Source: Xestospongia bergquistia (taxonomy: Eukaryota; Porifera; Demospongiae; Haplosclerida; Petrosiidae). Taken from it: 64,000 nt of DNA. The translations under genes and the position numbers were made by a program. Where the stretch lies: NCBI GenBank assembly GCA_963965975.1, contig OZ014420.1:6970001-7034000 (forward strand). The letters run 5' to 3'. Position 1 is the stretch's first letter, and the number at the start of each line of letters is the position of its first letter. Below are positions 14,521-64,000 of the stretch, in pieces. The notes beneath the pieces are model-generated. The model was not told the DNA's origin and did no database searches. It saw only the letters and a program-made list of their open reading frames with translations.

Positions 14521-16153
14521 TTATGATACATGACGTCTTCTTTCAAGTAATTCAAGTTCATCTTCAACTCTTTGTAACTGAGTAATGACATCCTCTTTAC
14601 GATTTATTTTAGCAACCTTTATAGTTCAATAGCATCAGGATTATCATTAGTACTTTCTTACCTGTTCAGGTTCTATATTTTGTCCAGCCTTTCTCTTCAA
14701 CTCTATTTGTTCAATCTAAGAGAACACGCAATAACTAACCATGAGTAACATTAACAATATACCTGACGTAACATTTTCTTTAATTTTCGAGCTGTCTTGT
14801 TGAGTTCTTTTGTCTCCTGATAACAGTAACCATGACGATAGCACTAATACTAAGACTTACATCATCACTGGATGTTGCTTCTTGAGGTACTAGACTGTCT
14901 TCTTGTAGAGGTGTGGCTCCTAGCAATGAACTTGACATTAGAGGTGTGGCTTCTGGGAATGTGTTAGCAATTGTGTTAGCAATTAGAGGTGTAGTTCTCA
15001 TCAATGTGCTGTTGGTTTGAGGAGGTATGGCTCCTGGCAATGTAGTTGATATTAGAGGTACAGCCCCTGATAATGTGGTATTGATTTGAGGAGGTGTGGC
15101 TCCTGGTAATATATCTAACATTGGAGGTGCAGCTCCAGAAAATGTGCTGTTGGGTTGAGGGTATGTGGCTTCAGAGAGCTTATGAGGTGGGACAGATGGA
15201 AATTGATTGAAACCTGGAGGAGGCATTGTTACAGACCCTATTAGGATGACATATTAATTAATATATAATTAACAACTGGTTAAGATACCTGATAAACCAC
15301 GTCCTAATCCACTTGGTACCATTGATGGAACAATCCCTTGACCCCATCCTAACATACCCACATGAGCACCACGTCCCCTTCCGCGTCCTTTGACACCTGC
15401 AACAGTAGTTCCCACAGAATATTGATATACCATAGACTCAGTATTTTGTGTTGAACGCGGCATACGAACAATAGGATCTTCTGTGGGTGTGGTTTCTTCA
15501 GGAGGCGGGTGTGGCTGCACACTAAAACAAAATTAATAAAAATTAATAGTAGTAATTAAAAAACTACCTTTTTAGAGTAACAGGATTTTTCTCAAACAAA
15601 CTTTGAACTCTCTCAGGTACGTACACCACATCTAATGAATTATGTTACTATTTATAGAATATTCTATTAATAGCCTTACTGTCGTCATCCCAGCTTTCAC
15701 TGGCCACAGGTGGAGTCCAATCTGTTGAAGGAACTGTCGTGTTACCTTTTTGCTTATATCGAGATGATTCTATATATAACCAGTTAATAACTAGCTAGTT
15801 ATAAATAATGTACCATACCATGTAACATTTCAGCTTCAACTCTACCCTAGAGAACAGGTAGCTATCGATGATGTCATAATTATGTCATCTCTTACTCGAT
15901 AAGGACAATTTTCAATATGAAAGTGAAACTCGGGTCTTGGAATGACATGTTGTGCATTAAATGGACACGTTTTATATTGTTTAGTATTATAGTTCTAACA
16001 AGGAGGATCATTGATCAATAATAAGATATTAATTATTACTATTATCACCTTACGACATTTAACAAGATGTGTTTGCATTCGTTTACGAGCAACTCTATGA
16101 ACAGGATCGTATGGGCATACGAGCAATTCCTCTGGATCAAATGGGTCCACCAT
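14521..16153 (-). CDS. GTSF1-like CHHC zinc-finger protein with long repetitive tail
   Basis: GTSF1/Asterix proteins bind tRNA-like RNA and assist Piwi-directed transposon silencing. The start at 16153 gives MVDPFDPEELLVCPYDPVH, close to the human head. Two U11-48K-type CHHC fingers are clear: C-PYDPV-H ... H-LVK-C, then C-PFNAQ-H ... H-IEN-C. An acidic aromatic stretch (ESWDDD) follows, as in GTSF1. The protein is then much longer than the usual 170 or so residues. It has a Gly/Arg patch (GRGRGRGAH), a tail of roughly 12-13-residue repeats of the type GATPPQINTTLSGA (about 14.86-15.19 kb), and a predicted coiled coil near the C-terminus (LLERRRHVS end). The stop is at 14521-14523. Zinc-finger assignment is strong; the tail function is unknown. 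Confidence 0.87.
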
Positions 16154-16266
16154 TTTAGAAGGAAAAGATCTTGTAAGATAAACAGCACAGCAATTCCCAC
16201 GTGGCTGAAGCGATTTATAATTTTTAACCCTTCCATGACGTAATTGTTTAAAACGTGGTGTCAGTC
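16154..16266. promoter_or_regulatory. Divergent GTSF1-like / SNRNP40 promoter
   Basis: 113 bp separate the two start codons. The segment contains TGACGTAA, a CRE half-site-like sequence, and no TATA box. A degraded copy lies at 20780-20873 as part of the tandem duplication. Confidence 0.5.
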
Positions 16267-18054
16267 ATGGCTTTCCCATTTGTTCCTGGAGGAGCTGTGG
16301 TTCCTCACGAGGGACACCAATTGATAGTTGCTCCACGAGATCCTCAAGCACTTATTCCAACAGTAATGCTATTATAATTGTTTATGTCAGTATATTTCCG
16401 TATATTAGGGCCCACCAAGGACATCCTCATTACAAGCACCCATTATGCGATTATTTGGTCACCAGGTGGGTGTGGTTCAATTAGTTAGTCATGTTGTCAC
16501 TGATTGAATTATTTTATTAATGATAGGGTGAGATCTATGCAGCAAAATTTAACCCCAATGGAGCCACATTGGCATCTGGTTCTTTTGAACGTCTCATATG
16601 TTAGCATATCATTGATCCATTATTTTTGATCATTTGTCCATTTTCTATTAGATTTATGGAACGTATATGGCGACTGTGAGAATTATTCTGTTATGAAAGG
16701 TCATCAAGGTGCCATCATGGATCTACAATATTCTATGGATGGAACGTGAGTAAAAGATTATGTAATTATAAGAGGTCATATTAACTGATATTATAAATAT
16801 ATATATAATTATAATTACATATATATCTGTTCTGATTTTATCTATGTTACTTCAGAATGCTATTTACAGCTGCTACTGACAAACTTGGTTCAGTTTGGGA
16901 CATTGAAGTAGGAACTAGACTTAAAAAACTGAAAGGCCACTCATCTTTTGTAAACAGCTGTGCTGCATCTCAACGAGGGACACAAATTGTTGCCACTGGT
17001 TCTGATGATGGTACAGCTCGGGTGAGTAGTGAATGTAATAACATAATGTCACACATATGTTGTAGGTGTGGGATCTTCGAAGTCGTTTTTCTTCTGAGAC
17101 CCTCAATAATATCTATCAAGTAACAGCTGTGTGTTTTAATAATGGCAGTGAACTGGTGATGACAGGTGGTTTAGATAATATGATCAAAGTACAGTTGTTA
17201 AATGGAGAGGCAGTAAAAAGGATTGTGATGAGTTATTTTCTTTGTTAGATATGGGATTTACGTAAAGAGGAGGTATTGTATACATTAGTTGGTCATAATG
17301 ATACTATTACTGGACTTAGTGTTAGTCCTAATGGTCATTACCTTTGTTCTAATGCTATGGATAATTCAGGTAAGGTTAGTTGTACATCTTTATGTCCTAT
17401 TGTGTGTCCATATTGTCCTACTATGTGTCCATATTGTCCTATTGTGTGTCCATATTGTCCTACTATGTGTCCATATTGTCCTATTGTGTGTCCATATTGT
17501 CCTACTATGTGTCCATATTGTCCTACTGTGTGTCCATATTGTCCTATTGTGTGTCCATATTGTAGTTCGGATTTGGGACATTCGTCCATATACTCAAGGA
17601 GAGAGACAATTAAAAGTATTAATTGGAGCTCAGCATAATTTTGAAAAGGTAAGAGATAGAAATATAAAATTTTAAAATTCAATATCACATTCTTTTTCTA
17701 TATTGGTTGCTTTGTTTGTCAGTAGTATTTCTTAATGTTGTATGTTATCTCAATAAATTACCTTTGTATATAAAAACCATAATTATTAATTAGTAACTCA
17801 GTACTATTGAATCTTACTCTTTTATTGTTAAAAATAAATTTACTCTTCAAAACCATTCCTAAGTTTTTAACCACTTATAAAGAAGCATTCCTAAGTTTTT
17901 AACCACATATAAAGAACTTATTAATGAATCATAATAGTGTATTCTATACTTTTCTATTATTTAGAACTTGTTGAGATGTTGTTGGTCACCTGATAGTAAA
18001 ATGGTGGCTGCTGGATCAGCAGACAGGTTATACCCCTGTTATTAGTTCCTCCTC

Positions 18055-18086
<32 letters not shown>

Positions 18087-18487
18087 AGATATGTGTATAT
18101 ATGGGATACAATATTAGGTCACATTAGATATAAGTTACCAGGTCATCAAGGCAGTGTTAATGATGTCCACTTTCATCCAAAAGAACAAATTTGTAAGAAT
18201 AATTTTTGCAATAATTCTAATCCATTTTGAACATGTACACAATGTAGATGTTGTATACATTTCAATGATCATGTGTAGTGATCCTATTAGTAAACTATTA
18301 TGTACAACATGTGTTCATTTATTGTTTTTGTCAGACTGAGTAATGTAAGAAGTGATAAAAACAACTTTTCAGGGAAAGCTGTTATAATGATTGTATAATT
18401 TACTGGTATTATTTGATAATAATGTTCTGTTCTACAGTACTCTCTTGTTCCAGTGATAAAACTCTTTACCTCGGAGAACTGCAGTAA
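16267..18487 (+). CDS. SNRNP40: U5 snRNP 40-kDa protein (WD40)
   Basis: A WD40 propeller that is part of the U5 snRNP and the spliceosome. The spliced product starts MAFPFVPGGAVVPHEGHQL, and then PPRTSSLQAPIMRLFGHQ aligns with the human PPRCSSLQAPIMLLSGHE. Seven blades follow, for example LLWNVYGDCENYSVMKGHQG, LKGHSSFVNSC, GSDDGTARVWDLRSR, LSNAMDNSVRIWDIRP-like and GSADRYVYIWDT. It ends SSDKTLYLGELQ with TAA at 18485-18487. Introns are longer than usual here. One is filled by a 21-bp minisatellite (17385-17566), and another ends in a CT microsatellite. A damaged duplicate lies at 20.9-23.6 kb. Confidence 0.95.
17385..17566 (+). repeat. 21-bp intronic minisatellite in SNRNP40, 8 units
   Basis: Units of the type CCTATTGTGTGTCCATATTGT alternate with CCTACTATGTGTCCATATTGT, making a 42-bp higher order. 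The array runs up to the 3' splice site: the last unit supplies the terminal TTGTAG just before the exon encoding the VRIWDIRP blade. It is open in several frames because 21 is a multiple of 3; the resulting Cys-Pro-Tyr repeat ORFs are not genes. Confidence 0.95.
18057..18089 (+). repeat. CT microsatellite at SNRNP40 3' splice site
   Basis: A (CT)n run ends in CTAG at the acceptor of the exon encoding YVYIWDT, so the repeat is the polypyrimidine tract. The duplicate copy has a longer run (22656-22709). Confidence 0.9.
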
Positions 18488-18841
18488 TATATACCAACTT
18501 CTGACCTATTTAACTAGTATCTGTTGTTTTAATGATTTATTGTAATTATGTTATAACTATTATTTCAATAATTTATTACATAGCTATTCTGTAAATGATA
18601 ATGTTGAGATCAATTCAAGACAATATTACATTAATTGTCCATAACTAAACAAGATTGTTTTCTTGTTTAGTTTTGTTTCAACAGGAAAACTTTTAAATGC
18701 GAGACACGTGCCAAAATGTATCAGTGCATAACAGCACCAAGCTATAAAAGTTCGCAAAAGAAGACAAGTAGCCATCAGATATTTTCAGACAAGAAAAAAA
18801 TAAACTGATATACTTCATCCTTCCTCCATTTTCTTATAGAA
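18488..18841 (+). promoter_or_regulatory. TGF-beta A upstream region: hairpin, E-box, TATA box
   Basis: Between SNRNP40 and the TGF-beta A start codon there is an 11-bp inverted repeat AACTAAACAAG ... CTTGTTTAGTT (18643-18653 / 18662-18672), whose arms contain forkhead-like TAAACA cores. There is also an E-box CACGTG at 18705-18710 and a TATA box TATAAAAG at 18743-18750, 92 bp before the ATG. All three are repeated unchanged in the duplicate upstream of TGF-beta B. Confidence 0.65.
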
Positions 18842-20060
18842 ATGGCTGTTAGTAGTCTCTTGGTGATACTGGCAACTTGCTGTCTGCTTTCTACAGCTGC
18901 TCCTCTACGTGAACGTAAACCATCGAGGAGAGCACCTGAATTCCTTCTGAAAGTAAACAAATGTTTCAGACTCAAAACTGAAGGAGAGTTGAACAAAGCT
19001 AAGGATTGCATCAAATTTGCAGGAAACGAGTTAGAAGTTGAAAACATTCTTGCAAGTGACACAGTATGGGGATTTGTTGGAAATTGTAAGGAAAAAAATT
19101 ATTGCATTTTATAAGTTTATATGTTTTTTACTAGTATCTATACAGAATTCTGAAGCAAGGATGTCTTTTGATATGAAAAGGAAAACTTTAAATGAAACAA
19201 TACACAATGTTGATCTACAACTTTTTAAGGATCAGCTTTCAGAAGATGCTCTTGAAACATTATCAACATCAACCTGCAACTTGGAACATGGAATAACACT
19301 TATATTAAAAACTATCCATTCAAAGGGTAGTGTTTCTTTTGTGACAAACATCTCGTTAAGTAAAAAGGATCTTATGAAGAAACAATGGATTGGATTTCAT
19401 GGGTTGAAAACATGGTACATACAAACGTTGGAAAAATCTCATGCAAATATCACTACTGCAACTTTAAAGCTGAGTACGTTACCAGAATGTGCTGGTATAT
19501 CTCTAGGAGACTTAGGCATCAAATCACATCCAGGTTATGAGCCTCTGATGGTAGTATATTCGGACGCAAGTGAAATAGAATCTGAAGAAAACTTAAATAA
19601 TTTGCTTAATAAACTTCAACTCGTTGCAAAACGATCAGCACAATTGGAGACAAACAGTAGTTCTGGAGTTGAACCAGATCCAACCATTAGATGTCAACTG
19701 ATCAGTTACAATGTAAGATATATACATATTTTTATTATATTTAAGTACATTTTATCAATACAGGTTTCTTTCGGTGAATTTAATTTTGCCCTACTACCTC
19801 CTGACAATACGTTCAACTTCAACTATTGCAGTGGTCATTGTGTTCTCCCCATACCAGACCATCAAAGTGTCAACCACTCCAAGATAGCTGCAGCTTTAAT
19901 CAGCAGACCCACAGTTACAGACAAACCAAAGGCTCCTTGTTGTGTTCCAGTAAAGTATAAACCGATTTACTTGGCAATATTTGTTCCAGATGGTGCTAAA
20001 GGAACATACAAGTTAGAACCATACTCAAACATGACAGCTTTAAAATGTGGTTGCCGCTAG
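18842..20060 (+). CDS. TGF-beta family ligand A
   Basis: Secreted growth-factor precursor of about 372 residues in three exons (18842-19085, 19135-19712, 19764-20060). A signal peptide MAVSSLLVILATCCLLSTAA precedes the prodomain (N-glycosylation sites NETI, NISL). A basic site LVAKRSAQ comes before the mature region; it is not a perfect RXXR furin site. The cystine-knot domain has the seven conserved cysteines: RCQLISYN, YCSGHC, APCCVP and the terminal KCGCR. The finger-1 tryptophans usual in the family (GWDDW type) are missing; the segment reads SFGEFNFALLPPDN. The last intron splits the knot domain right after the first conserved cysteine. It is the 5' member of a three-ligand cluster. Signalling through type I/II Ser/Thr kinase receptors is family knowledge. 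Confidence 0.92.
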
Positions 20061-20400
20061 AAACTCTTAAAATAGAGAAACTTCTTTATATAGAGGCTAA
20101 TATTTTGTACACTTTATTTGAAACATATTTTGTTGATTACAATTTTCCCACAATTTATTTGTAATATTTAATTTATTTGTCACATATTACACAAAATTTA
20201 TACTATTAATTTTTGTACACATAAGTTGATTTAAACTATAAACTCTATGACCTTGTCATACATTGTTGTTGTAACATTATTTAACTAATAAATTTAGTGA
20301 ACTTTAATCAACTTGTTGTCTCAGTAATTGTGGGTGGGTATATCAACATAGACAGAACAATATAAAAAGGAAATACACAATAGAACACACACAACTAAAG
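20061..20400 (+). other. TGF-beta A 3' region and remnant of the TGF-beta C promoter
   Basis: The 3' UTR carries several AATAAA-like sites. From about 20310 to 20400 the sequence matches 25430-25521, the promoter and leader of TGF-beta C, including TATAAAAAGG at 20361-20370. It is a by-product of the tandem duplication and no longer drives a ligand. Confidence 0.75.
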
Positions 20401-20699
20401 ATAGGACATTATGATGATGAAAGTCCCAAAAACAACAAACACCCCTTTTTATATCTGTACATGTTTCATAAGTCTTAAGATAAATAAATAGGAATAAAAT
20501 AGCTACAGACAACAACTACAGAAAGCGATAAAGAGCTTAGGATTTTCACACAATGTTTCAACCCTGGTAGGTCTTCTTCAGGTGTGAAGAAGATCTACCA
20601 GGGTTGAAACATCATGTGAAAATACTAAGTTCTCTATTACTTCTGTAGTTATTGTCTCCCTATCTATTTTATTCCCATTTATTTGTCTTACAACTAAAG
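20391..20699. mobile_element. Insertion containing a 218-bp near-palindrome, flanked by 10-bp direct repeats
   Basis: Direct repeats ACAACTAAAG (20391-20400 and 20690-20699) flank 289 bp that are absent from the corresponding site near 25521. Positions 20474-20691 form an imperfect inverted repeat with arms of about 107 bp, centred on TCTTCTTCAGGTGTGAAGA at 20582/20583. Outer arm sequence TAAGATAAATAAATAGG mirrors CCCATTTATTTGTCTTA, consistent with a TA-target MITE or foldback element. It encodes no protein. Whether the 10-bp repeats are a true target duplication is inference. Confidence 0.65.
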
Positions 20700-20746
20700 A
20701 GAGCTATAAGACCAGTATAGTTGATATCCTATTGTCTCATATCTCA
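20690..20746 (+). pseudogene. Remnant of TGF-beta C exon 1 at the duplication junction
   Basis: ACAACTAAAGAGAGCTATAAGACCAGTAT aligns in sections with the TGF-beta C leader and start (ACAACTAAAGACAGCTATAA then the ATG), but the ATG is lost. Similarity fades near 20730-20740, where the GTSF1 fragment begins. Confidence 0.6.
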
Positions 20747-20790
20747 TAGCAATTCCTCTGGATCAAATAGATCCGCCATTTTAAAGAAAG
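20747..20790 (-). pseudogene. Truncated GTSF1-like exon 1 fragment
   Basis: The reverse strand reads ATG at 20777-20779 and encodes MADLFDPEELL followed at once by a stop. It matches the start of the GTSF1-like gene (MVDPFDPEELLVCPYD) as far as the duplication breakpoint. It marks the left edge of the second duplicated unit. Confidence 0.8.
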
Positions 20791-21979
20791 TCAACTTGCA
20801 AGCGCAACAATTTCTACATGGGGGGGGGGGAGTAATATTTTAACCCTTTCTTGACGTAATTGTTTAAAACGTTGTGGCTTTCCCGTTTATTCCAGGAGGA
20901 GCTGTGGTTCCTCACGACAGACACCAATTGATAGTTGCTCCACAAGATCCTCAAGCACTTATTCCAACAGTAATACCATTATAATTGTTTATGTCAGTAT
21001 ATTTCCGTATATTAGGACCCACCAAGGACAACCTTATTACAAGCACCCGTTTTGCAATTATTGGTCACCAGGTGGGTGTGGTTCAATTATTCATTACTGA
21101 TTGCAATATTTTATTAATGATAGGGTGAGATATATGCAACAAAATTTAACCCCAATGGAGCTACATTGGCATCTGGCTCTTTTGAACGTCTCATATGTTA
21201 GCATATCATTGATCCATTATTTTTGATCATTTGTCCATTTTCTATTAGATTTATGGAATGTATATGGCGACTGTGAGAATTATTCTGTTATTAAAGGTCA
21301 TCAAGGTGCCATCATGGATCTATAATATTCTATGGATGGAACGTGAGTAAAAGATTATGTAATTATAAGAGGTCATATTAACTGATATTATAAATATATA
21401 TATAATTATAATTACATATATATCTGTTCTGATTTTATCTATGTTACTTCAGAATGCTATTTACAGCTGCTACTGACAAACTTGGTTCAGTTTGGGACAT
21501 TGAAGTAGGAACTAGACTTAAAAAACTGAAAGGCCACTCATCTTTTGTAAACAGCTGTGCTGCATCTCAACGAGGGACACAAATTGTTGCCACTGGTTCT
21601 GATGATGGTACAGCTCGGGTGAGTAGTGAATGTAATAACATAATGTCACACATATGTTGTAGGTGTGGGATCTTCGAAGTCGTTTTTCTTCTGAGACCCT
21701 CAATAATATCTATCAAGTAACAGCTGTGTGTTTTAATAATGGCAGTGAACTGGTGATGACAGGTGGTTTAGATAATATGATCAAAGTACAGTTGTTAAAT
21801 GGAGAGGCAGTAAAGGATTGTGATGAGTTATTTTCTTTGTTAGATATGGGATTTACGTAAAGAGGAGGTATTGTATACATTAGTTGGTCATAATGATACT
21901 ATTACTGGACTTAGTGTTAGTCCTAATGGTCATTACCTCTGTTCTAATGCTATGGATAATTCAGGTAAGGTTAGTTGTA

Positions 21980-22160
21980 CATCTTTATGTCCTATTGTGT
22001 GTTCATATTGTCCTACTATGTGTCCATATTGTCCTATTGTGTGTCCATATTGTCCTACTATGTGTCCATATTGTCCTATTGTGTGTCCATATTGTCCTAC
22101 TGTGTGTCCATATTGTCCTACTATGTGTCCATATTGTCCTATTATGTGTCCATATTGTAG
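21980..22160 (+). repeat. 21-bp intronic minisatellite in the SNRNP40 duplicate, 8 units
   Basis: Same 21-bp units as at 17385-17566 and the same unit number, but a different order of unit variants: the last three read CTACTGTG, CTACTATG, CTATTATG. This shows internal rearrangement since the duplication. Confidence 0.95.
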
Positions 22161-22462
22161 TTCGGATTTGGGACATTCGTCCATATACTCAAGGAGAGAG
22201 ACAATTAAAAGTATTAATTGGAGCTCAGCATAATTTTGAAAAGGTAAGAGATAGAAATATAAAATTTTAAAATTCAATATCACATTCTTTTTCTATATTG
22301 GTTGCTTTGTTTGTCAGTAGTATTTCTTAATGTTGTATGTTATCTCAATAAATTACCTTTGTATATAAAAACCATAATTATTAATTAGTAACTCAGTACT
22401 ATTGAATCTTACTCTTGTTAAAAATAAATTTACTCTTCAAAGGCATTCCTAAGTTTTTAACC

Positions 22463-22494
22463 TCTTTATAAGTGGTTAAAAACTTAGGAATGGT
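22463..22494. repeat. 32-bp micro-inversion relative to the first copy
   Basis: The block equals the exact reverse complement of 17852-17883. In the first copy two CATTCCTAAGTTTTTAACC motifs are direct repeats; in this copy they face each other and form a hairpin. Confidence 0.9.
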
Positions 22495-22654
22495 TCTTTA
22501 TAACTTCTTAATTCTTTGTATTCTATAATTTTCTATTATTTAGAACTTGTTGAGATATAGTTGGTCACCTGATAGTAAAATGGTGGCTGCTGGATCAGTA
22601 AACAGGTTATACCCCTGTTATTAGTTCCTCCTCTGATCTCTCTCCCCTCCCACC

Positions 22655-22655
<1 letters not shown>

Positions 22656-22707
<52 letters not shown>

Positions 22708-22709
22708 AG
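22656..22709 (+). repeat. Expanded CT microsatellite at a pseudogene 3' splice site
   Basis: A (CT)n run of about 50 bp ends in TTTCTAG before the duplicated exon ATATGTGTATATATGGG. The parent run is about 30 bp. Confidence 0.9.
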
Positions 22710-23003
22710 ATATGTGTATATATGGGATACAATATTAGGTCACATTAGATATAAGTTACCAGGTCATCAAGGCAGTGTTAATGATGTCCACTTTCATCCA
22801 AAAGAACAAATTTGTAAGAATAATTTTTGCGATAATTCTAATCCATTTTGAACATGTACACAATGTAGATGTTGTACACATTTCAATGATCATGTGTAGT
22901 GATCCTATTAGTAAACTATTATGTACAACATGTGTTCATTTATTGTTTTTGTCAGACTGAGTAACGTAAGAAGTGATAAAAACAACTTTTCAGGGAAAGC
23001 TGT

Positions 23004-23502
23004 ATTTAAAAGTGTTACTTATGATAGCACCTAATTATTAATTATGTATTGTTTGTACACAATAAGAGGTGTGTTTTTAACGTCATAGCAACCATGACAA
23101 TTTTTAAAATCCTAAAATAACTTAACTAATTCAAGTATCAGAAAAGTAAAGTTTCAAAGAATATAGCTATTTCCATTTATAGTAGAATTAATTTAAACAA
23201 TGTTTTAATTAATTCTACTATTGTTTGTACACAGTAAAAGGTGTGTTTTTAGCGTCATGGCAACCATCCCAAAGTTAGATATTTTAATTGACTCAAGTGT
23301 CAGAAAGTACAAATGTTTTTATTTCAAATTCTATAGTCATTGTCTAATCATTCATATATGATAGATTTAATTTAATGTAATCGACATAAACATTTACTGT
23401 AGATGTTAATGTGTATGTTAATTTTTACAAATTTCAAGAACAACAAGAAAATTAACTGATTTACAATTACAATACAATAATTGTTAATGGAACTATTTAT
23501 TA
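23004..23502. mobile_element. 499-bp segment present only in the second SNRNP40 copy
   Basis: Flanking intron sequence is continuous in the first copy (18382/18383). The segment contains two diverged repeats about 172 bp apart, each starting ATTGTTTGTACACA and including GGTGTGTTTTTAACGTCAT-like sequence followed by GCAACCAT. No ORF and no clear terminal repeats or target duplication were seen. An insertion here, or a deletion in the first copy, are both possible. Confidence 0.55.
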
Positions 23503-23607
23503 TATAATGATTGTATAATTTACTGGTATTATTTGATAATAATGTTCTGTTCTACAGTACTCTCTTGTTCCAGTGATAAAACTCTTTACCTTGGAGAACT
23601 GCAGTAA

Positions 23608-23961
23608 TATATACCAACTTCTGACCTATTTAACTAGTATCTGTTGTTTTAATGATTTATTGTAATTATGTTATAACTATTATTTCAATAATTTATTACA
23701 TAGCTATTCTGTAAATGATAATGTTGAGATCAATTCAAGACAATATTACATTAATTGTCCATAACTAAACAAGATTGTTTTCTTGTTTAGTTTTGTTTCA
23801 ACAGGAAAACTTTTAAATGCGAGACACGTGCCAAAATGTATCAGTGCATAACAGCACCAAGCTATAAAAGTTCGCAAAAGAAGACAAGTAGCCATCAGAT
23901 ATTTTCAGACAAGAAAAAAATAAACTGATATACTTCATCCTTCCTCCATTTTCTTATAGAA
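23608..23961 (+). promoter_or_regulatory. TGF-beta B upstream region (duplicate promoter)
   Basis: Near-identical to 18488-18841. It keeps the forkhead-like hairpin (23763-23792), the E-box CACGTG (23825-23830) and TATAAAAG (23863-23870). Confidence 0.65.
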
Positions 23962-25180
23962 ATGGCTGTTAGTAGTCTCTTGGTGATACTGGCAACTTGC
24001 TGTCTGCTTTCTACAGCTGCTCCTCTACGTGAACGTAAACCATCGAGGAGAACACCTGAATTCCTTCTGAAAGTAAACAAATGTTTCAGACTCAAAACTG
24101 AAGGAGAGTTGAACAAAGCTAAGGAATGCATCAAATTTGCAGGAAACGAGTTAGAGGTTGAAAACATTCTTGCAAGTGACACAGTATGGGGATTTGTTGG
24201 AAATTGTAAGGAAAAAATTATTGTATTTTATAAGTTTATATATTTTTTTACTAGTATCTATACAGAATTCTGAAGCAAGGATGTCTTTTGATATGAAAAG
24301 GAAAACTTTAAATGAAACAATACACAATGTTGATCTACAACTTTTTAAGGATCAGCTTTCAGAAGATGCTCTTAAAACATTATCAACATCAACCTGCAAA
24401 TTGGAACATGGAATAACACTTATATTAAAAACTATCCATTCAAAGGGTAGTGTTTCTTTTGTGACAAACATCTCGTTAAGTAAAAAGGATCTTATGAAGA
24501 AACAATGGATTGGATTTCATGGGTTGAAAACATGGTACATACAAACGTTGGAAAAATCTCATGCAAATATCACTACTGCAACTTTAAAGCTGAGTACGTT
24601 ACCAGAATGTGCTGGTATATCTCTAGGAGACTTAGGCATCAAATCACATCCAGGTTATGAGCCTCTGATGGTAGTATATTCGGACGCAAGTGAAATAGAA
24701 TCTGAAGAAAACTTAAATAATTTGCTTAATAAACTTCAACTCGTTGCAAAACGATCAGCACAATTGGAGACAAACAGTAGTTCTGGAGTTGAACCAGATC
24801 CAACCATTAGATGTCAACTGATCAGTTACAATGTAAGATATATACATATTTTTATTATATTTAAGTACATTTTATCAATACAGATTTCTTTCGGTGAATT
24901 TAATATTGGCCTACTACCTCCTGACAATATTTTAGAGTTCAACTATTGCAGTGGTCATTGTGTTCTCCCCATACCAGACCATCAAAGTGTCAACCACTCC
25001 AAGATAGCTGCAGCTTTAATCAGCAGACCCACAGTTACAGACAAACCAAAGGCTCCCTGTTGTGTTCCAGTAAAGTATAGTTCGATTTACTTGCCAGTAT
25101 TTGTTCCAGATGGTGCTAAAGGAACATACAAGTTAGAACCATACTCAAACATGACAGCTTTAAAATGTGGTTGCCGCTAG
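23962..25180 (+). CDS. TGF-beta family ligand B
   Basis: A paralogue of ligand A with identical exon layout and length (about 372 residues). Signal peptide and prodomain differ from A at only about four residues (for example RRTPEF for RRAPEF, ALKTLS for ALETLS). The mature domain differs at ten. In the finger-1 segment the changes are V/I, F/I, A/G and TFN to ILE. In the second finger KYKPIYLAIF becomes KYSSIYLPVF. All seven knot cysteines are kept. Almost all differences in the mature domain change the amino acid. Expression is probably similar to A, because the promoter is also duplicated. Confidence 0.92.
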
Positions 25181-25483
25181 AAACTCTTAACATAAAGAAA
25201 CTTCTTTATATAGAGGCTAATATTTTGTACACTTTATTTGAAACATATTTTGTTGATTACAATTTTCCCACAATTTATTTGTAATATTTAATTTATTTGT
25301 CACATATTTCACAAAATTTATACTATTAATTTTTGTACACATAAGTTGATTTAAACTATAAACTCTATGACCTTGTCATACATTGTTGTTGTAACATTAT
25401 TTAACTAATAAATTTAGTGAACTTTAATCAACTTGTTAATTGTCTCAGTAATGTGGGTGGGTATATCAACATAGACAGAACAA

Positions 25484-25493
25484 TATAAAAAGG
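25484..25493 (+). promoter_or_regulatory. TATA box of TGF-beta C
   Basis: TATAAAAAGG lies 48 bp before the ATG at 25532. A duplicate lies at 20361-20370, upstream of nothing. Confidence 0.6.
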
Positions 25494-25531
25494 AATACAC
25501 AATAGAACACACACAACTAAAGACAGCTATA

Positions 25532-26874
25532 ATGAAGATCAGTATCATTGTTACTCTGATGTTTTATATTCTAAATAGAAGTGGTATACTAGCAGCCAAT
25601 CTAAGACCACATGCTGAGAGATCTCGCTCACAAGATGATAACAATCTTTTCATCCATCATAAACCTGATAATGATGATCTAGATGAAGAAAGTCAAAAAA
25701 TGCCACAATTTATGGAAACTTTATATGAGTGCTGGCAAGCCAGAGATGATGGTGGCTCTGTGAAGAGGTGCTTACTCTCAGCAGGAGAGAGACAAAAAAT
25801 TGAAGAAATTTCTAACTCTAATACTATCATAGGATTTATTGGAAAAGGTAAGACTTTGAACAAAGAACATTGAATAATGTTGAAACTTTTTTCAGATTCA
25901 CATCAAGTATCAAAAAACAATGGTCCACAATACCAAGAGGTTACATTCAATATTTCATGTACTAGACCAAATGAAACTGTGTACTCATCTGAGATTCGAT
26001 TCTACAAATCAAAAATTAACTCAAAAATTATTGACACACTCAGCTCTGGTCTTTGTCAATTAAATAATGGTGTTGTATTGTCATTATTAGCTGATCTCCA
26101 AGGCAACGGCAGAGACCAAGTTATAGAGAAAGTTAATTTAAGTCGAAAGAGATTGATGCGTGACGAGTGGGTAGTATTCCGTAATTTCAAATCAGCTTAC
26201 ACTCAATGGAAGGCTGACCATGGAAACCTGGAAAACAGGGTTGTTAAACTGGTTTTGGAAGGAGGTTGTGCTAGCATCCACCCTTCTAGTATAGGCCTGA
26301 ATAGTACTGCCAGTAACGAAAAAGAAATGAAAGATCCATTAATGGTTGTGTTCGTTGATACCAATCCTAACAGTGAAGCAGAACAGAAGATGTTACAACA
26401 TATTGTTCAAACAGTAGGAACACTCTCTATAGAACATAAAAAACGCCAAATTGAAAACAATATTGTTATTAACAGTGAAGCAGTCAGTGGTGAACATGAT
26501 ATCACTAATTCTTGTCAACTTCAGAAGTATATTGTAAGTATATAAATTACATTATATCTATTAATACATATTTTATTATTATATAGGTTGACTTTTCAAC
26601 ACTAGGTTGGGACGATTTTATCATTGGTCCAAAATCTTATACTGCTAATTACTGTGCTGGTGGATGTCATTATCCTATATCTGATCATCAAAATGGGACA
26701 CTCCACTCTAAAATTCAAGCTTATACTCACCTTGTTTCTCCTGATCACATTCCAGCACCTTGTTGTGTACCAGTCAAGTTAACGTCACAATCGTTAATTG
26801 TTAAGTTGGATAAACGGACCATTCAAATCAAAACGTTCCCAGGAATGGTTGCAAAGCATTGTGGTTGCCGATAA
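25532..26874 (+). CDS. TGF-beta family ligand C
   Basis: About 413 residues in three exons (25532-25847, 25896-26533, 26587-26874), with intron positions equivalent to ligands A and B, so all three descend from one gene. The signal peptide is MKISIIVTLMFYILNRSGILA. The prodomain resembles A and B only loosely (for example CQLNNGVVLSLL against CNLEHGITLILK). The basic site is EHKKRQIE. The mature domain is more canonical than A/B: VDFSTLGWDDFIIGP in finger 1, YCAGGC, APCCVPVK and terminal HCGCR. It lies head-to-tail with B, 351 bp after the B stop codon. Confidence 0.93.
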
Positions 26875-55843: not shown

Positions 55844-58090
55844 ATGGCCGTCTTAAGTTTCTTTCTTGTTATCCTTTTTATATGCTGTTCTCAAGTTGCT
55901 CAAGGGCAAGACTTGAGCAAAATCCAGCACTTGTATCCTTCTTCTCTACATACTAGTAATGATGTAGATTTGAGTCAGATACAAGAAACTTTGAAGATAT
56001 TATCAGAGAATTTTATAGAAATTCTCATGGACCAGGAGAGTAGCTGCAGTGAACAATGGGTTCAATTGGCAGAGACAAACCATACAGAAACGGTTGCAGG
56101 TCAAACAATTGTGGAAAAAGCTGCTTCTATGGCATATGATGCCTTTGGTAAGCCAGAAGCTGGTATCCTTCGTGGTAACACCCAATTCCGTGGTTCATTT
56201 GATGAGTGTTTTAGTATTAATGTGGATATTGAAATGCAATACTGTTTGATGGGTATGTTAATACAGAACACTTATAATGTATCCATTATGCCAGCATTCA
56301 CTGAAGCAATATGTCTTCCTTCAAATTGTACGTTTGAAGATGTTAAATCAACAGTCAATAAAATCAATGAGCTGTTAGCTATAATAAAATTGAAAATCTT
56401 TGTCAATGAAACACTTGATGGTACTGTCCCATTTTATTACTGCACTCCTGAAGCTAAACCTTCCTATTCAACTGGTGCAATAATCATGTTATTAATCACA
56501 TCAATATTTGGAACATTAGTAATTGTTGGAACATTATTTGATCTGTTACTATATTATTTTAACAAATATATTGAAAACGGACTAGGTTCGATCAACACGG
56601 ATATATTAAAGATGAACAAGGTGAACACCCTTGGTGAGAGGGATAACCTTTTAGGAAGAAACCGACAACCATCAGTGTCAGAACGTATTAAAACTTTTCT
56701 TAAAGAGTCTCTTGTAGGTTTCTCACTATACAAGACTGTACCAACTATATTTTCTACACGTCAGCCATCTTCTGCTATTACTAGTATTAATGGTATTAGA
56801 GTTATCAGTATGTTTTGGGTTATTTTGGGACATACATATGTCTTTTTATTTACGTTTCAAGGTTTTAAAAACCTCTCTCTTCTTGCAATCAACTTTGCTC
56901 CACGATTCTCAGCTCAAGCTGTTTTAAATGGATTCTTTTCAGTCGATTCTTTTTTCTTTTTAAGTGGTGTTCTTGTTTCATATCTTACATTTCGAGAGAT
57001 GGCACGTAAAAGGGGTAAATTCCCTTTCATTACTTATTATCTTCATCGTATCTTACGTTTGACACCAACTTATATGTTTGTTTTATTCTGTTTTTGGTTT
57101 TTAACAGTACATCTTGGACGTGGACCACTATTTCTTGAGTCAACAGGTCCTGATAGTAGCATTGTCAAAAATTGTGAAAGTTATTGGTGGACTAATCTTC
57201 TCTACATCAACAATTTCTATCCAACAAAATTTACTGATCAATGTATGGGCTGGGCATGGTATTTAGCTAATGATATGCAGTTTTTTGTTATATCTCCATT
57301 GTTTCTAATCCTTCTCTATACCTGGTATCCTGCAGGACTTATTGCTATTGCCATCACTTTGTTATCATCATTTGGTGTGACTGGATTTATAGCTGGTTAC
57401 TATGACTACCCTGCTAATATGTTATATGATATATTTGTTGGTATTAAACCTGATCCAAACTTACCTGATGTTTCAACTGAGATCTATGGTAAACCATATT
57501 GTCGTATTGGACCATATCTCATTGGAATAGTACTAGGTTTTATACTATATAATAACTATCGTCTGAACATACACAAAGTTGTGAACTGGTTACTGTATAT
57601 TGTCATGTGGCTAGTAGCTGGTGTTCTAGGTATGGCTGTTGTATATGGTTTTTATCCAACATTTCATGGCCATGCCTTTAGTCAGGTTGAAAACATCATG
57701 TATTTCATGTTCTCTCGTACAACATGGGGTATTTGTTTAGCATTAGTTGTGTATGCTTGTCACTATGGTTACGGAGGAGTCATCAATCGTTTTCTTTCCT
57801 TGCCTTTCTGGGTTCCTTTGAGTCGTCTGACATTTAATGCTTATCTTGTTCATGAGGTTGTATTGGTGGTGATCTTTGGTGATCTGAGAGACACCATTTT
57901 TTATACAGACATCACTATTGCTGTGTACATAATAGCTAATGTTGTCATATCATATGGTATAGCTGGACTAGTGTCTATCTTTGTTGAATTCCCACTCTCT
58001 AACTTGGAGTCAGCTACTTTTAAATTATTTGGTGCTCATTTACGTGAGTCAACTCGACGAGTTAATCAGGAGACAGCAAGTAATAAATGA
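55844..58090 (+). CDS. NRF-6-like acyltransferase-3 membrane protein, copy 1
   Basis: An intact single-exon gene of 748 residues. A signal peptide (MAVLSFFLVILFICCSQVAQG) leads to an extracellular NRF domain with paired cysteines (SSCSEQW, DECFSI, QYCLMG, AICLPSNC, FYYCTPE). A transmembrane helix follows (IIMLLITSIFGTLVIVGTLFDLLLYYF), then a cytosolic stretch. The acyltransferase-3 core of about ten helices starts ITSINGIRVISMFWVILGHTYVF, with the family R-x-x-S/A-x-x-W-V-x-x-G-H pattern, and FFSVDSFFFLSGVLVSY. The family includes C. elegans NRF-6, linked to lipid or drug transport in the intestine. The substrate here is unknown. First of at least four tandem copies. Confidence 0.93.
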   Translation: MAVLSFFLVILFICCSQVAQGQDLSKIQHLYPSSLHTSNDVDLSQIQETLKILSENFIEILMDQESSCSEQWVQLAETNHTETVAGQTIVEKAASMAYDAFGKPEAGILRGNTQFRGSFDECFSINVDIEMQYCLMGMLIQNTYNVSIMPAFTEAICLPSNCTFEDVKSTVNKINELLAIIKLKIFVNETLDGTVPFYYCTPEAKPSYSTGAIIMLLITSIFGTLVIVGTLFDLLLYYFNKYIENGLGSINTDILKMNKVNTLGERDNLLGRNRQPSVSERIKTFLKESLVGFSLYKTVPTIFSTRQPSSAITSINGIRVISMFWVILGHTYVFLFTFQGFKNLSLLAINFAPRFSAQAVLNGFFSVDSFFFLSGVLVSYLTFREMARKRGKFPFITYYLHRILRLTPTYMFVLFCFWFLTVHLGRGPLFLESTGPDSSIVKNCESYWWTNLLYINNFYPTKFTDQCMGWAWYLANDMQFFVISPLFLILLYTWYPAGLIAIAITLLSSFGVTGFIAGYYDYPANMLYDIFVGIKPDPNLPDVSTEIYGKPYCRIGPYLIGIVLGFILYNNYRLNIHKVVNWLLYIVMWLVAGVLGMAVVYGFYPTFHGHAFSQVENIMYFMFSRTTWGICLALVVYACHYGYGGVINRFLSLPFWVPLSRLTFNAYLVHEVVLVVIFGDLRDTIFYTDITIAVYIIANVVISYGIAGLVSIFVEFPLSNLESATFKLFGAHLRESTRRVNQETASNK

Positions 58091-58477
58091 GAAGATGCAA
58101 TAGAGACTACTCATAAGTTATACTTCAATTTATTGAACAACATAATAATTTTAGATATTACTTTGTTCATGCACTATAGTTATGATATCATTCATTAAGT
58201 TACTATACACATCTTCACATAGCATTGTTTTATTAAATGTCAACTTTCCATATGATGTTCCTCAATTAAAGTGATAACTTTGTAAAATTAAAAATATCAT
58301 GTGATATATAAATTTCTTCTCTATTATACATAGGGTATTGTCTGCCATTAGAAGCAAGACAAGTTGGAAACTAATGATAAGGCGAAATCTTCTCATTGTA
58401 AATTTAATATTTATAATGTATATATTTGTATACTATAAAAATAATAATATTCATGAATAGGGAATATCTACTGCACA
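58091..58477. other. Spacer between NRF copies 1 and 2
   Basis: AT-rich, with the 3' UTR and a promoter for copy 2. Unlike the 131-195-bp spacers further on, it shows no obvious similarity to them. No gene seen. Confidence 0.6.
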
Positions 58478-60756
58478 ATGATCGACCTAAGACTTTCTTT
58501 TGTTGTTCTTTTCGTCTGCTGTTCTCAAATAGCTCGAGGACAAGATCTGAGAAAAATCCAGCAGCTACATACTAACAATGATATAGATTTCGAAAAGATA
58601 GAAGAAGCTCTGAAGATATTATCAGAGAATTTCCTCTCTACTCTTAAGGCCCAGGAGAGTAGCTGTAGTGAACAATGGACTCAGTTGGAAAAGGCAAACC
58701 ATACAGAAACAGTTGCAGGAGAGCTACTTGTGTTTGCAGGTGATTCTGTAGCATACGATGCTTTTGGTAAACCAGAAGCTGATATCTTTCATGGTAACAC
58801 CCAATATCGTGGTTCATTTGATGAGTGTTTTAGTATTAATATAAATATTGATATGCAATACTGTTTGATGGGTATGTATATAACAAACAGTTTGTTTGTA
58901 CCCATTTTACCACCACTCACTGAAGCAATATGTCTTCCTTCAAATTGCACGTTTACAAATGTCAGATCAACTATCGATGCAATCAATATCTTGTTAGCTA
59001 TAGCATCTATTGATTTCCGTATTTTTGTCAATGAGACAATTCTTAATGGTACTGTCCCATTTTATTACTGCACTCCTGAAGCTAAACCTTCCTATTCAAC
59101 TGGTGCAATAATCATGTTAACAATCACATCAATATTTGGAGCATTAGTAATTGTTGGAACATTATTTGATCTGTTACTATATTATTACAAAAATAGAAAT
59201 AAGAAGAATGCCTTGGGCTCCCTCAATCCGGAAATATTGAAACTAGACAAAGGAGAGAGTAATGACATTATTGGAGAGAAAGACAGCCTTTTAGGAAAAA
59301 GTCAAAAGCTATCAATGTCAGGACGTTGTCATACATTTTTTAAAGATTCTCTTGTAGGTGTCTCACTATACAAGACTGTACCAACTATATTATCTACACA
59401 CCAGCCATCTTCTGCTATTACTAGTATCAATGGTATTAGAGTTATTAGTATGTTCTGGGTTATTTTGGGACATACATATGTCTTTCTTTTAGGATATAAT
59501 GGTTACAAAAATTCTGCTTATATAATTTCTACATTTCCTGCACGATTCTCAGCTCAAGCTGTTTTAAATGGATATTTTTCAGTCGATTCTTTTTTCTTTT
59601 TAAGTGGTGTTCTTGTTTCATATCTTACATTTCGAGAAATGGCACGTAAAAAGGGTAAATTCCCTTTCATTACTTATTATCTTCATCGTATCTTACGTTT
59701 GACACCAACTTATATGTTTGTTCTATTCTTTTATTGGTTTTTAACAGTACATCTTGGACGTGGACCACTATTTCTTGAGTCAACAGGTCCTGATAGTAGC
59801 ATTGTCAAAAATTGTGAAAGTTATTGGTGGACTAATCTTCTCTACATCAACAATTTCTACCCAACAAAATTTACTGATCAATGTATGGGCTGGGCATAGT
59901 ATTTAGCTAATGATATGCAGTTTTTGTTATATCTCCATTGTTTCTAATCCTTCTCTATACCTGGTATCCTGCAGGACTTATTGCTATTGCCATCACTTTG
60001 TTATCATCATTTGGTGTGACTGGATTTATAGCTGGTTACTATGACTACCCTGCTAGTCAGTTTTATGATACATTTGTTGGTATTACTCCTGATCCAAACT
60101 TACCTGATGTTTCAACTGAGATCTATGGTAAACCATATTGTCGTATTGGACCATATCTCATTGGAATAGTACTGGGTTTTATACTATATAATAATTATTG
60201 TCTGAAGATACGTAAAGTTGTGAACTGGTTACTGTACATTGCCATGTGGCTAGTAGCTGGTGTTCTAGGTATGGCTGTTGTATATGGTTTTTATCCAACA
60301 TTTCATGGCCATGCCTTTAGTCAGGTTGAAAACATCATGTATTTCATGTTCTCTCGTACAACATGGGGTATTTGTCTAGCATTAGTTGTGTATGCTTGTC
60401 ACTATGGTTACGGAGGAGTTATCAATCGTTTTCTTTCCTTGCCTTTCTGGGTTCCTTTGAGTTGTCTGACATTTAATGCTTATCTTGTTCATGAGGTTGT
60501 ATTGATTGTGATATTTGGTGATCAGAGAGAACCCTTCTTTTATACAGACATCACTATGGCTGTATATATAATAGCTAATGTTGTCATATCATATGGTATA
60601 GCTGGACTAGTGTCTATCTTTGTTGAGTTCCCACTCTCTAATTTGGAGTCAGCTACTTTTAAATTATTTGGTGCTCGTTTACGTGAGTCAACTCGACGAG
60701 TTAATCAGGAGACAGCAAGTAACAAAAGAGAAGACAAGATAGAAACTAATATGTAG
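58478..60756 (+). pseudogene. NRF-6-like acyltransferase-3, copy 2, interrupted
   Basis: Full-length relative of copy 1, with its own divergent signal peptide (MIDLRLSFVVLFVCCSQIARG), an intact NRF domain and the first half of the acyltransferase core. The frame is broken by two nearby lesions. A TGG-to-TAG change ends translation at 59897-59899 (after MGWA), and a T is lost from the run in CAGTTTTTTG near 59921-59926. The downstream frame (59938-60756) is otherwise intact to a TAG. The truncated 473-residue product would keep the NRF domain and a few helices. It could be a recent pseudogene or an assembly or allelic defect. Confidence 0.85.
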
Positions 60757-60887
60757 TAAAAAAGTTTTTATTGTTTAAAAATATTTTGTGTAGTAAAATA
60801 CTATTCACAGCTATCTATATCTCATGTCATGCATGTGACTCTAGTGATGAGCTGATATCAATGTGCTGAGTTAGGACATTTGAAATT

Positions 60888-63110
60888 ATGGTTGCCCTTA
60901 GTATCATTTTTGTTGTCCTTTTTATCTGTTGTTCCTCTCAAGTTGCTCAAGGACAAGACTTGAGCAAAATCCAGCACTTGTATCCCTCTTCTCTACATAC
61001 TAGTAATGATGTACATTTGAGTCAGATACAAGAAACTTTGAAGATATTATCAGAGAATTTTATAGAAATTCTCATGGACCAGGAGAGTAGCTGCAGTGAA
61101 CAATGGGCTCAATTGGCAGAGACAAACCATACAGAAACAGTTGCAGGTCAAACAATTGTGGAAAAAGCTGCTTCTATGGCATATGATGCCTTTGGTAAGC
61201 CAGAAGCTGGTATCCTTCGTGGTAACAATCAATTTCTTGGTTCATTTGATGAGTGTTTTAGTATTAATGTGGATATTGAAATGCAATACTGTTCGATGGG
61301 TATGTTAATACTGAACAGTTTTTATGTACCAATCATACCACCACTCACTGAAGCAATATGTCTTCCTTCAAATTGTACGTTTGAAGATGTTAAATCAACA
61401 GTCAATAAAATCAATGATCTGTTAGCTATAATGAAATTGTATATCTTTGTCAATGAAACACTTGATGGTACTGTCCCATTTTATTACTGCACTCCTGAAG
61501 CTAAACCTTCCTATTCAACTGGTGCAATAATGATGTTATTAATCACATCAATATTTGGAGCATTAGTAATTGTTGGAACATTATTTGATCTGTTACTATA
61601 TTATTTTAACAAAACAGAAGATGAAAATGAGTTGGCTACAATTAACATTAAGAAAAAAACAGAAGAAAATGATGTCATTGGTGGAGAAAGGGAAAGTCTC
61701 TTGGGAAGAAGCCCAAAACCATCACGTATTAAAACTTTTCTAAAAGAGTCTCTTGTAGGTTTCTCACTATACAAGACTGTACCAACTATATTTTCTACAC
61801 GTCAGCCATCTTCTGCTATTACTAGTATCAATGGTATTAGAGTTATCAGTATGTTTTGGGTTATTTTAGGACACACCTACTTCTTTTTATTTATTTTAAG
61901 TGGCTTTAAAAATCAATCTCGTCTAATCACTAACTTTGCTCCACGATTCTCAGCTCAAGCTGTTTTAAATGGATTCTTTTCAGTTGATTCTTTTTTCTTT
62001 TTAAGTGGTGTTCTTGTTTCATATCTTACATTTCGAGAGATGGAACGCAAAAGGGGTAAATTCCCTTTCATTACTTATTATCTTCATCGTATCTTACGTT
62101 TGACACCAACTTATATGTTTGTTTTATTCTGTTTTTGGTTTTTAACAGTACATCTTGGACGTGGACCAAAATTTCATCTGGTAGCTGGTCCCGATAGTAG
62201 TTTATACAAAAATTGTGAAAGTTATTGGTGGACTAATCTTCTCTACATCAACAATTTCTATCCAACAAAATTTGCTGATCAATGTATGAGCTGGGCTTGG
62301 TATTTAGCTAATGATATGCAGTTTTTTGTTATATCTCCATTGTTTCTAATCCTTCTCTATACCTGGTATCCTGCAGGACTTATTGCTATTGCCATCACTT
62401 TGTTATCATCATTTGGTGTGACTGGATTTATAGCTGGTTACTATGACTACCCTGCTAGTCAGTTTTATGATGCATTTGTTGGTATTACTCCTGATCCAAA
62501 CTTACCTGATGTTTCAACTGAGATCTATGGTAAACCATATTGTCGTATTGGACCATATCTCATTGGAATAGTACTGGGTTTTATCCTATATAATAATTAT
62601 CGTCTAAACATACGTCAAGTTGTTAACTGGTTACTGTATATTGTTATGTGGCTAGTAGCTGGTGTTCTAGGTATGGCTGTTGTATATGGTTTTTATCCAA
62701 TATTTCATGGCCATCCCTTTAGTCAGGTTGAAAACATCATGTATTTCATGTTCTCTCGTACAACATGGGGTATTTGTTTAGCATTAGTTGTGTATGCTTG
62801 TCACTATGGTTACGGAGGAGTCATCAATCGTTTTCTTTCCTTGCCTTTCTGGGTTCCTTTGAGTCGTCTGACATTTAATGCTTATCTTGTTCATGAGATC
62901 GTATTAGGAGCTATATTTGGTGATCAGAGAGACACCATTTTTTATACAGACATCACTATGGCTGTATATATAATAGCTAATGTTGTCATATCATATGGTA
63001 TAGCTGGACTAGTGTCTATCTTTGTTGAGTTCCCACTCTCTAACTTGGAAACAGCTACCTTTAAATTATTTGGTGCTCGTTTGCGTGAGTCAACTCGACG
63101 TGTTAATTAG
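60888..63110 (+). CDS. NRF-6-like acyltransferase-3, copy 3
   Basis: Intact single-exon gene of 740 residues with the same domain order. The NRF domain is nearly that of copy 1, but the cytosolic linker differs (TEDENELATINIKKKTEENDV) and the loop after GHTY reads FFLFILSGFKNQSRLITNF. The C-terminus is shorter than in copies 1 and 2 because CAG has become TAG after ESTRRVN. The downstream bases still encode a degenerate tail. Loss of ten terminal residues after the last helix is probably tolerated. Confidence 0.92.
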   Translation: MVALSIIFVVLFICCSSQVAQGQDLSKIQHLYPSSLHTSNDVHLSQIQETLKILSENFIEILMDQESSCSEQWAQLAETNHTETVAGQTIVEKAASMAYDAFGKPEAGILRGNNQFLGSFDECFSINVDIEMQYCSMGMLILNSFYVPIIPPLTEAICLPSNCTFEDVKSTVNKINDLLAIMKLYIFVNETLDGTVPFYYCTPEAKPSYSTGAIMMLLITSIFGALVIVGTLFDLLLYYFNKTEDENELATINIKKKTEENDVIGGERESLLGRSPKPSRIKTFLKESLVGFSLYKTVPTIFSTRQPSSAITSINGIRVISMFWVILGHTYFFLFILSGFKNQSRLITNFAPRFSAQAVLNGFFSVDSFFFLSGVLVSYLTFREMERKRGKFPFITYYLHRILRLTPTYMFVLFCFWFLTVHLGRGPKFHLVAGPDSSLYKNCESYWWTNLLYINNFYPTKFADQCMSWAWYLANDMQFFVISPLFLILLYTWYPAGLIAIAITLLSSFGVTGFIAGYYDYPASQFYDAFVGITPDPNLPDVSTEIYGKPYCRIGPYLIGIVLGFILYNNYRLNIRQVVNWLLYIVMWLVAGVLGMAVVYGFYPIFHGHPFSQVENIMYFMFSRTTWGICLALVVYACHYGYGGVINRFLSLPFWVPLSRLTFNAYLVHEIVLGAIFGDQRDTIFYTDITMAVYIIANVVISYGIAGLVSIFVEFPLSNLETATFKLFGARLRESTRRVN

Positions 63111-63304
63111 GAGACACCAACGGAAGACAAAACTAATATATAGTAAAATTTGTTTTATTGTTTAAAAATATTTTGTGTAGTAAAATTATTGTTTAAAAAT
63201 ATTTTGTGTAGTAAAATACTATTCACAGCTATCTATATCTCATGTCATACATGTGACTCTAGTGATGAGCTGATATCAATGTGCTGAGTAGGACATTTGA
63301 AATT
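63111..63304. other. Spacer between NRF copies 3 and 4, duplicated from the copy 2-3 spacer
   Basis: Matches 60757-60887, including TGATGAGCTGATATCAATGT. It contains an extra tandem duplication of about 30 bp (ATTGTTTAAAAATATTTTGT plus 10), absent from the earlier spacer. Confidence 0.75.
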
Positions 63305-64000
63305 ATGGTTCCCCTTAGTATCATTTTTGTTGTCCTTTTTATCTGTTGTTCCTCTCAAGTTGCTCAAGGACAAGACTTGAGAAAAATCCAGTACTTGTAT
63401 CCCTCTTCTCTACATACTAGTAATGATGTACATTTGAGTCAGATACAAGAAACTGTGAAGATATTATCAGAGAATTTTATAGAAATTCTCATGGACCAGG
63501 AGAGTAGCTGCAGTGAACAATGGGCTCAATTGGCAGAGACAAACCATACAGAAACAATTGCAGGTCAAACAATTGTGGAAAAAGCTGCTTCTATGGCATA
63601 TGATGCCTTTGGTAAGCCACAAGCTGGTATCCTTCGTGGCAACACCCAATTTTTTGGTTCATTTGATGAGTGTTTTAGTATTAATGTGGATATTGAAATG
63701 CAATACTGTTTGATGGGTATGTTAATACTGAACACTTCTTATGTACCCATTCTACCACCATTCACTGAAGCAATATGTCTTCCTTCAAATTGTACGTTTG
63801 AAGATGTTAAATCAACAGTCAATAAAATCAATGAGCTGTTAGCTATAATGAAATTGCAAATCTTAGTCAATGAAACACTTCTTAATGGTACTGTCCCATT
63901 TTATTACTGTACTCCTGAAGCTAAGCCCTCATATTCAGCTGGTGCAATAATGATGTTATTAATCACATCAATATTTGGAGCATTAGTAATTGTTGGAACA
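63305..64000 (+). CDS. NRF-6-like acyltransferase-3, copy 4 (partial, runs off window)
   Basis: The start ATG is at 63305-63307 (MVPLSIIFVVLFICCSSQ). The open frame continues to the window edge through the NRF domain (SSCSEQWAQLAETNHTET, AICLPSNCTFED, FYYCTPEAKPSYSAGA) into the first membrane helix (MMLLITSIFGALVIVGT). No lesion was seen in the visible 232 codons. It is closest to copy 3. Confidence 0.9.
   Translation, partial: MVPLSIIFVVLFICCSSQVAQGQDLRKIQYLYPSSLHTSNDVHLSQIQETVKILSENFIEILMDQESSCSEQWAQLAETNHTETIAGQTIVEKAASMAYDAFGKPQAGILRGNTQFFGSFDECFSINVDIEMQYCLMGMLILNTSYVPILPPFTEAICLPSNCTFEDVKSTVNKINELLAIMKLQILVNETLLNGTVPFYYCTPEAKPSYSAGAIMMLLITSIFGALVIVGT

Follow-up and report, generated by a model that had tools for sequence, protein, structure and literature searches.

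A local peak of divergence within duplicates that undergo gene conversion has been described as a sign of selection (PMC3924837; PMC3728101), and conversion can itself pass for positive selection (PMC3924837). The red and green opsin genes are tandem duplicates with near-identical introns and a peak of amino-acid divergence in one exon (PMC3924837), and GOT1p1 and GOT1p2 of Tigriopus californicus keep regions of high divergence despite gene conversion (PMC3728101). More loosely related is the case of TLR1 and TLR6, tandem paralogues in which one part is homogenised by conversion and another is free to diversify (PMC2077338). Here we describe a pair whose type of pattern is thus already known from other genes: two TGF-beta-type ligand genes, ligands A and B, in a 64,000-nucleotide window of the sponge Xestospongia bergquistia (contig OZ014420.1, or C10, positions 6970001-7034000; the genome searched comprised 146 Mb in 21 contigs). 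Most of the pair has probably been made uniform by gene conversion, and its true age is probably greater than its appearance suggests; we see an about even chance that, within such an older, converted tandem pair, two patches of the mature domain have been held apart by selection. The parallels have their limits. Several primate orthologues and a known function are at hand for the opsins (PMC3924837), whereas A and B are known from the sequence of one genome; GOT1p1 and GOT1p2 encode a metabolic enzyme and come with population data (PMC3728101); and TLR1 and TLR6 are divided into large domain blocks (PMC2077338), in contrast to the two short patches of A and B.

Differences between ligands A and B

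The two ligands lie in a tandem repeat of head-to-tail units of ~4.3 and ~4.8 kb, each carrying a WD40 gene and a TGF-beta ligand, and they have their splice signals in common. Positions are those of the window.

16121..20400, + strand: unit copy 1, with a likely U5-40K (SNRNP40)-like WD40 gene and then ligand A; aligned to 20747-25523
20747..25523, + strand: unit copy 2, with a broken copy of the U5-40K-like gene and then ligand B; aligned to copy 1
18842..20060, + strand: ligand A, three exons, 372 residues, Pfam TGF_beta
23962..25180, + strand: ligand B, three exons, 372 residues, Pfam TGF_beta
18842-19085, 19135-19712 and 19764-20060, + strand: exons of ligand A
23962-24205, 24255-24832 and 24884-25180, + strand: exons of ligand B
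19764..19817, + strand: patch 1 in A (finger 1), 8 of 54 nucleotides unlike B
19960..19977, + strand: patch 2 in A (finger 2), 5 of 18 nucleotides unlike B
24884..24937, + strand: patch 1 in B
25080..25097, + strand: patch 2 in B

Over the 274 codons of exons 1 and 2, A and B differ at five sites, four of them nonsynonymous (A31T, D55E, E122K, N130K) and one synonymous. The 98 codons of exon 3 hold 14 differences, 13 nonsynonymous and one synonymous at 19937 (12.5 and 1.5 with Nei-Gojobori path averaging), and ten codons are replaced (V275I, F282I, A283G, T290I, F291L, N292E, K340S, P341S, A345P, I346V). Thirteen of these 14 differences fall inside the two patches, eight in 54 nucleotides and five in 18; the 142 nucleotides between the patches contain one difference and the 83 nucleotides after them none. 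The surroundings have hardly changed: one of 459 sites differs in the 5' flank (18383-18841), intron 1 has two substitutions and two indels of 1 bp, intron 2 is identical, and the 3' flank up to 20401 has three substitutions and three indels, which gives 6 of 898 sites for flanks and introns together when tallied by hand from the alignment listing with the borders of the spliced exons. Nonsynonymous change in exon 3 is in excess of the flanks and introns (Fisher p 6e-6), of nonsynonymous change in exons 1 and 2 (p 2e-5) and of all synonymous sites (p 0.002), and eight differences in 54 nucleotides were reached in 0 of 5,000 permutations across the interior of the unit. An earlier note, made from the letters of the window, had counted about four changes in the first 270 or so residues, ten replacements and one synonymous change in the mature domain, and had seen the nonsynonymous changes cluster in two patches beside almost frozen promoters and introns; our counts agree with it on all of these points.

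Two details of the patches were also seen. At 19960-19962 A reads AAC and B reads GTT, which are reverse complements of each other and perhaps represent one complex mutation rather than three. At 19812-19823 A has TTCAACTTCAAC and B has TTAGAGTTCAAC, and a local copying event could yield three of the patch-1 differences together.

The first two of the four copies of a ligand array on contig C8 served as a control, the other copies being compared by BLAST only. The array (C8:309000-350399, L020-L023) has four ligand genes at a spacing of ~10.4 kb; its copies two and three are identical across 9,915 bases, either through a recent duplication or through duplication in the assembly. On the 5' side, copies one and two differ at 7 of 881 sites; on the 3' side the figure is 91 of 1,468. 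Their coding sequences differ by six nonsynonymous and five synonymous changes over 303 codons, with one and two, respectively, in the 102 mature codons. The difference in mature nonsynonymous change between the A/B pair and this pair has a p of 0.0007, with the number of nonsynonymous sites estimated for C8.

Mosaic divergence of the duplicated unit

The whole unit shows 67 differences in 3,875 compared sites and its interior 34 in 3,362, leaving aside gap columns, 16148-16225, a 21-base repeat (17393-17563), a badly aligned segment (17852-17940) and a microsatellite (18052-18090). These differences are unevenly spread.

16121..16530, + strand: diverged 5' edge, 26 of 313 compared sites differ (8.3%)
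16727..17343, + strand: identical run, no substitution across 615 successive compared sites, which take in introns
17852..18057, + strand: second non-homogenised stretch, which includes an exon of the U5-40K-like gene; 5 of 111 sites differ in 17941-18057

Divergence is 3.5% in 16531-16730, with 1 difference in 660 sites in 16731-17392 and 0 in 283 in 17564-17851. The longest identical runs measure 615, 483 and 459 sites against permutation means of 271, 214 and 186 (p 0.0006, 0 of 20,000 and 0 of 20,000). The stretch 16727-17343 is probably a homogenised tract, and the simplest cause of the mosaic would be gene conversion inside a duplication of greater age. Part of it could come from uneven mutation or constraint, but the 615-site run spans introns of a gene that is broken in one copy. 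Copy 2 of the U5-40K-like gene is probably a pseudogene, because its reading frame is interrupted by a stop at 21323-21325 and no start codon aligns with that of copy 1; this broken copy (20747-23620) is still identical to copy 1 across hundreds of bases. Within the same gene, 17852-17940 aligns poorly and seems to be part-inverted between the copies.

We simulated neutral conversion under ten settings of 1,500 runs each, with a starting divergence of 8.3% or 15% and mean tracts of 50 to 1000; runs with totals outside 24-46 were discarded, and 605-1,314 were kept per setting. A 54-nucleotide peak of at least eight differences arose somewhere in 6 of 1,302 to 16 of 626 kept runs (0.5-2.6%), and such a peak together with 14 differences in 214 nucleotides in 0 of 1,314 to 15 of 870 (0-1.7%). 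These simulations suggest that a purely neutral mosaic is unlikely.

Exon 3 of B as a DNA query matched only B and A in the whole genome, and the patterns of both patches of A and of B, with up to three mismatches, each matched only themselves in the assembly. A 21-base pattern was discarded as a donor probe; it gave 12 matches including B, against 21 for the reversed control. A and B were also compared column by column with seven further ligands encoded in the genome, the near-identical C8 copies being represented by one. In the six columns of patch 1 the residues of A fit the other ligands better (hardly so at 275), whereas at 340 B clearly fits better and at 341 slightly. At 345 both A and B are unusual, all seven other ligands having I, L, V or M. 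The comparison weakly suggests, with outgroups this distant, that B carries the derived state in patch 1 and A at residue 340, in which case both copies may have changed. The changed sites do not stand out in column variability among the paralogues of the genome (p 0.81).

Ligand identity, receptor contacts and neighbouring genes

Over residues 267-371 the Pfam TGF_beta profile scores 56.4 bits in A and 51.1 bits in B (cut-off 27), and both have seven cysteines in their last 105 residues, the number that forms the knot and the dimer bond of TGF-beta ligands. TGFb_propeptide reaches 12.7 bits in A, under its cut-off of 25.8, and has no match in B up to an E-value of 1. Furin-type cleavage takes place at an RxxR motif before the mature domain; by eye there is none ahead of the mature domain here, and a dibasic K-R is found at 247-248 instead. 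The top PDB matches are an activin A/BMP-2 chimera for A (2.7e-10) and BMP-3 for B (7.3e-9); other BMPs and GDFs score close to these, and artemin is weak.

Counted from the double cysteine, residues 340 and 341 are presumably positions 85 and 86 of BMP-2, and we take 345 and 346 to be positions 90 and 91 if the alignment is gapless. HMMER aligned K340-P341 of A with the R-P of the activin A/BMP-2 chimera, and the S-S of B with the S-A of BMP-2 and the S-S of BMP-3. By this alignment, part of the finger-2 patch (340 and 341) would lie on the type II receptor knuckle. In a study of BMP-2, the variants S85R, A86P and the double mutant bind BMPR-II with increased affinity (relative dissociation constants of 0.12, 0.50 and 0.19) and are little altered towards ActR-IIB and ActR-II (0.85 to 2.6), Ser85 and Ala86 not being critical for ActR-IIB, while Leu90 lies in the pocket that takes Trp60 of the receptor (PMC1802081). 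A and B differ at both aligned positions, K-P versus S-S, and resemble these variants in that respect; the variants belong to an engineered human ligand (PMC1802081). Two matches to the GS box of type I receptors lie on opposite strands, 2.3 kb apart, on contig C13 (5661390-5663818) and may be a divergent receptor pair. The PF01064 profile (activin receptor family) gave no match, not even in the controls, and is uninformative.

A profile search with PF00019 found at least 12 TGF-beta domains in the genome, namely A, B and a third ligand in the window, four in the C8 array and five others. The third ligand directly follows ligand B.

25532..26874, + strand: ligand C, the closest other paralogue of A and B, 46% identical over mature residues 18-98

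The WD40 gene is likely to be U5-40K (SNRNP40)-like. A 96-residue peptide joined from two of its exons matched U5-40K chains in PDB at ~1e-43 over all 96 residues; two Tako8 sequences and one WD-40 repeat protein outscored these chains for the same peptide, as such repeat proteins do, and the name is therefore not firm. One exon of this gene, used as a genome query, found the two unit copies, a 44% match on contig C5 and nothing else. The 3' flank of copy 1 only carries a fold-back element (20401-20689; 83% self-inverted match at 20476-20690) bordered on both sides by ACAACTAAAG, and copy 2 only has 499 bases at 23004-23502 in which repeated segments can be seen by eye. A further tandem repeat, with units ~82-93% alike, occupies 55852-64000 and runs to the end of the window.

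Explanations of the retained patches

We propose that one TGF-beta-type ligand and a U5-40K-like gene were duplicated in tandem, and that conversion between the copies would repeatedly overwrite the promoter, the introns, the prodomain and the core of the mature domain, making the copies look young. In the two patches of the mature exon the copies would remain distinct, the likeliest reason being a loss of fitness whenever they are equalised there, and A and B would each have their own preferred type II (or perhaps type I) receptors or antagonists. That conversion produced the mosaic, that selection kept the patches apart and that receptor specificity is the trait concerned are our inferences, selection on this specificity being likely but unproven. 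A more specific version, in which the two ligands are a conversion-resistant pair that differs in specificity, kept alike in all but two receptor-contact patches, with B changed mainly in finger 1 and A at 340-341, and with an activin-like pair in A and a BMP-like pair in B at the type II knuckle as a within-locus switch like that engineered in BMP-2, is tentative and rather doubtful.

Several points weigh against selection acting on an older, converted pair. Within exon 3 itself, nonsynonymous changes are not in significant excess over synonymous ones (Fisher p 0.14, binomial 0.149); of the positive selection suggested in the earlier note, the clustering and the excess over the local rate stand and the contrast within the exon does not. 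The borders of the patches were set after the data had been seen, and if fewer mutation events are assumed, the excess over the flank rate has a p of 0.02 with five events and 0.001 with seven. The comparison is one of two sequences from one genome with no orthologue, and one scan each of a genome-contig and a viral-contig collection returned no homologue. Patch 2 is not simply derived in A, as at 345, and slightly at 346, it is A whose residue agrees better with the other ligands. Leftover stretches can survive without a ligand function, because the non-homogenised stretch 17852-18057 belongs to the U5-40K-like gene, which is broken in copy 2. The argument for an old duplication rests on one edge, because divergence is clear at the 5' edge only, with 0.9% at the 3' end as far as 20401. 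On the receptor side, HMMER pairs residue 345 with BMP-3 and BMP-6 and inserts a gap there against BMP-2 and the chimera, the finger-1 changes precede the second mature cysteine in a region where indels of A and B relative to other ligands make the numbering uncertain, and an AlphaFold2 model of exon 3 of A with B and C was unusable (mean predicted local distance difference test score, pLDDT, 38.8). The receptor-facing position that the earlier note gave to both fingers is thus retained for part of the finger-2 patch, by alignment, and is uncertain for finger 1.

A conversion mosaic without selection, in which the patches are old divergence awaiting overwriting, would agree with the stretch left over beside a broken gene copy, with the insignificant ratio in exon 3 and with the comparable peaks in 0.5-2.6% of the simulated runs. 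We regard it as unlikely, given that the peak must also land in the mature exon, 297 of the 3,362 interior sites, and that the patches, at 15% and 28% within their post hoc borders, exceed the 8.3% of the edge. The history implied by the earlier note, a young duplicate whose receptor fingers then changed quickly under positive selection while conversion played a small part, would explain why nonsynonymous change in exon 3 so far outruns the flanks and introns (p 6e-6) and fits with the absence of the pattern in the single C8 pair compared; it leaves an 8.3% diverged 5' edge beside 615 identical sites unexplained, and we find it improbable. Because the unit is a mosaic with such an edge, the frozen background is probably homogenised and not young.

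Short conversion tracts could have replaced entire codon runs and brought five changes into 8 nucleotides, their source being a diverged allele or another ligand that has since been lost or is missing from the assembly. Yet the four patch patterns have no second match at up to three mismatches and the next ligand is 46% identical, which leaves the earlier note's alternative of conversion from another paralogue without a donor found in the assembly; moreover, if patch 1 is derived in B and 340 in A, which is weakly indicated, one donor event would not give both and more than one would be needed. Such tracts seem a quite improbable source. That A and B are alleles placed in tandem by the assembly would suit two copies of high identity, and heterozygous insertions could imitate part of the copy-specific structure. 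This is very improbable for head-to-tail units of which copy 1 alone has the fold-back insertion and copy 2 alone the 499-bp insertion, with a broken U5-40K-like gene in copy 2 and ligand C only after B.

Literature listings on TGF-beta ligand paralogs and gene conversion, and on nodal tandem duplication in Xenopus, contained no such case, within a partial coverage that leaves room for one in print. If an older, conversion-homogenised pair has indeed been held apart by selection at its two mature patches, A and B would be a TGF-beta ligand pair in which selection beats gene conversion at single receptor patches, and the ~ten residues that set receptor choice would be pinpointed.

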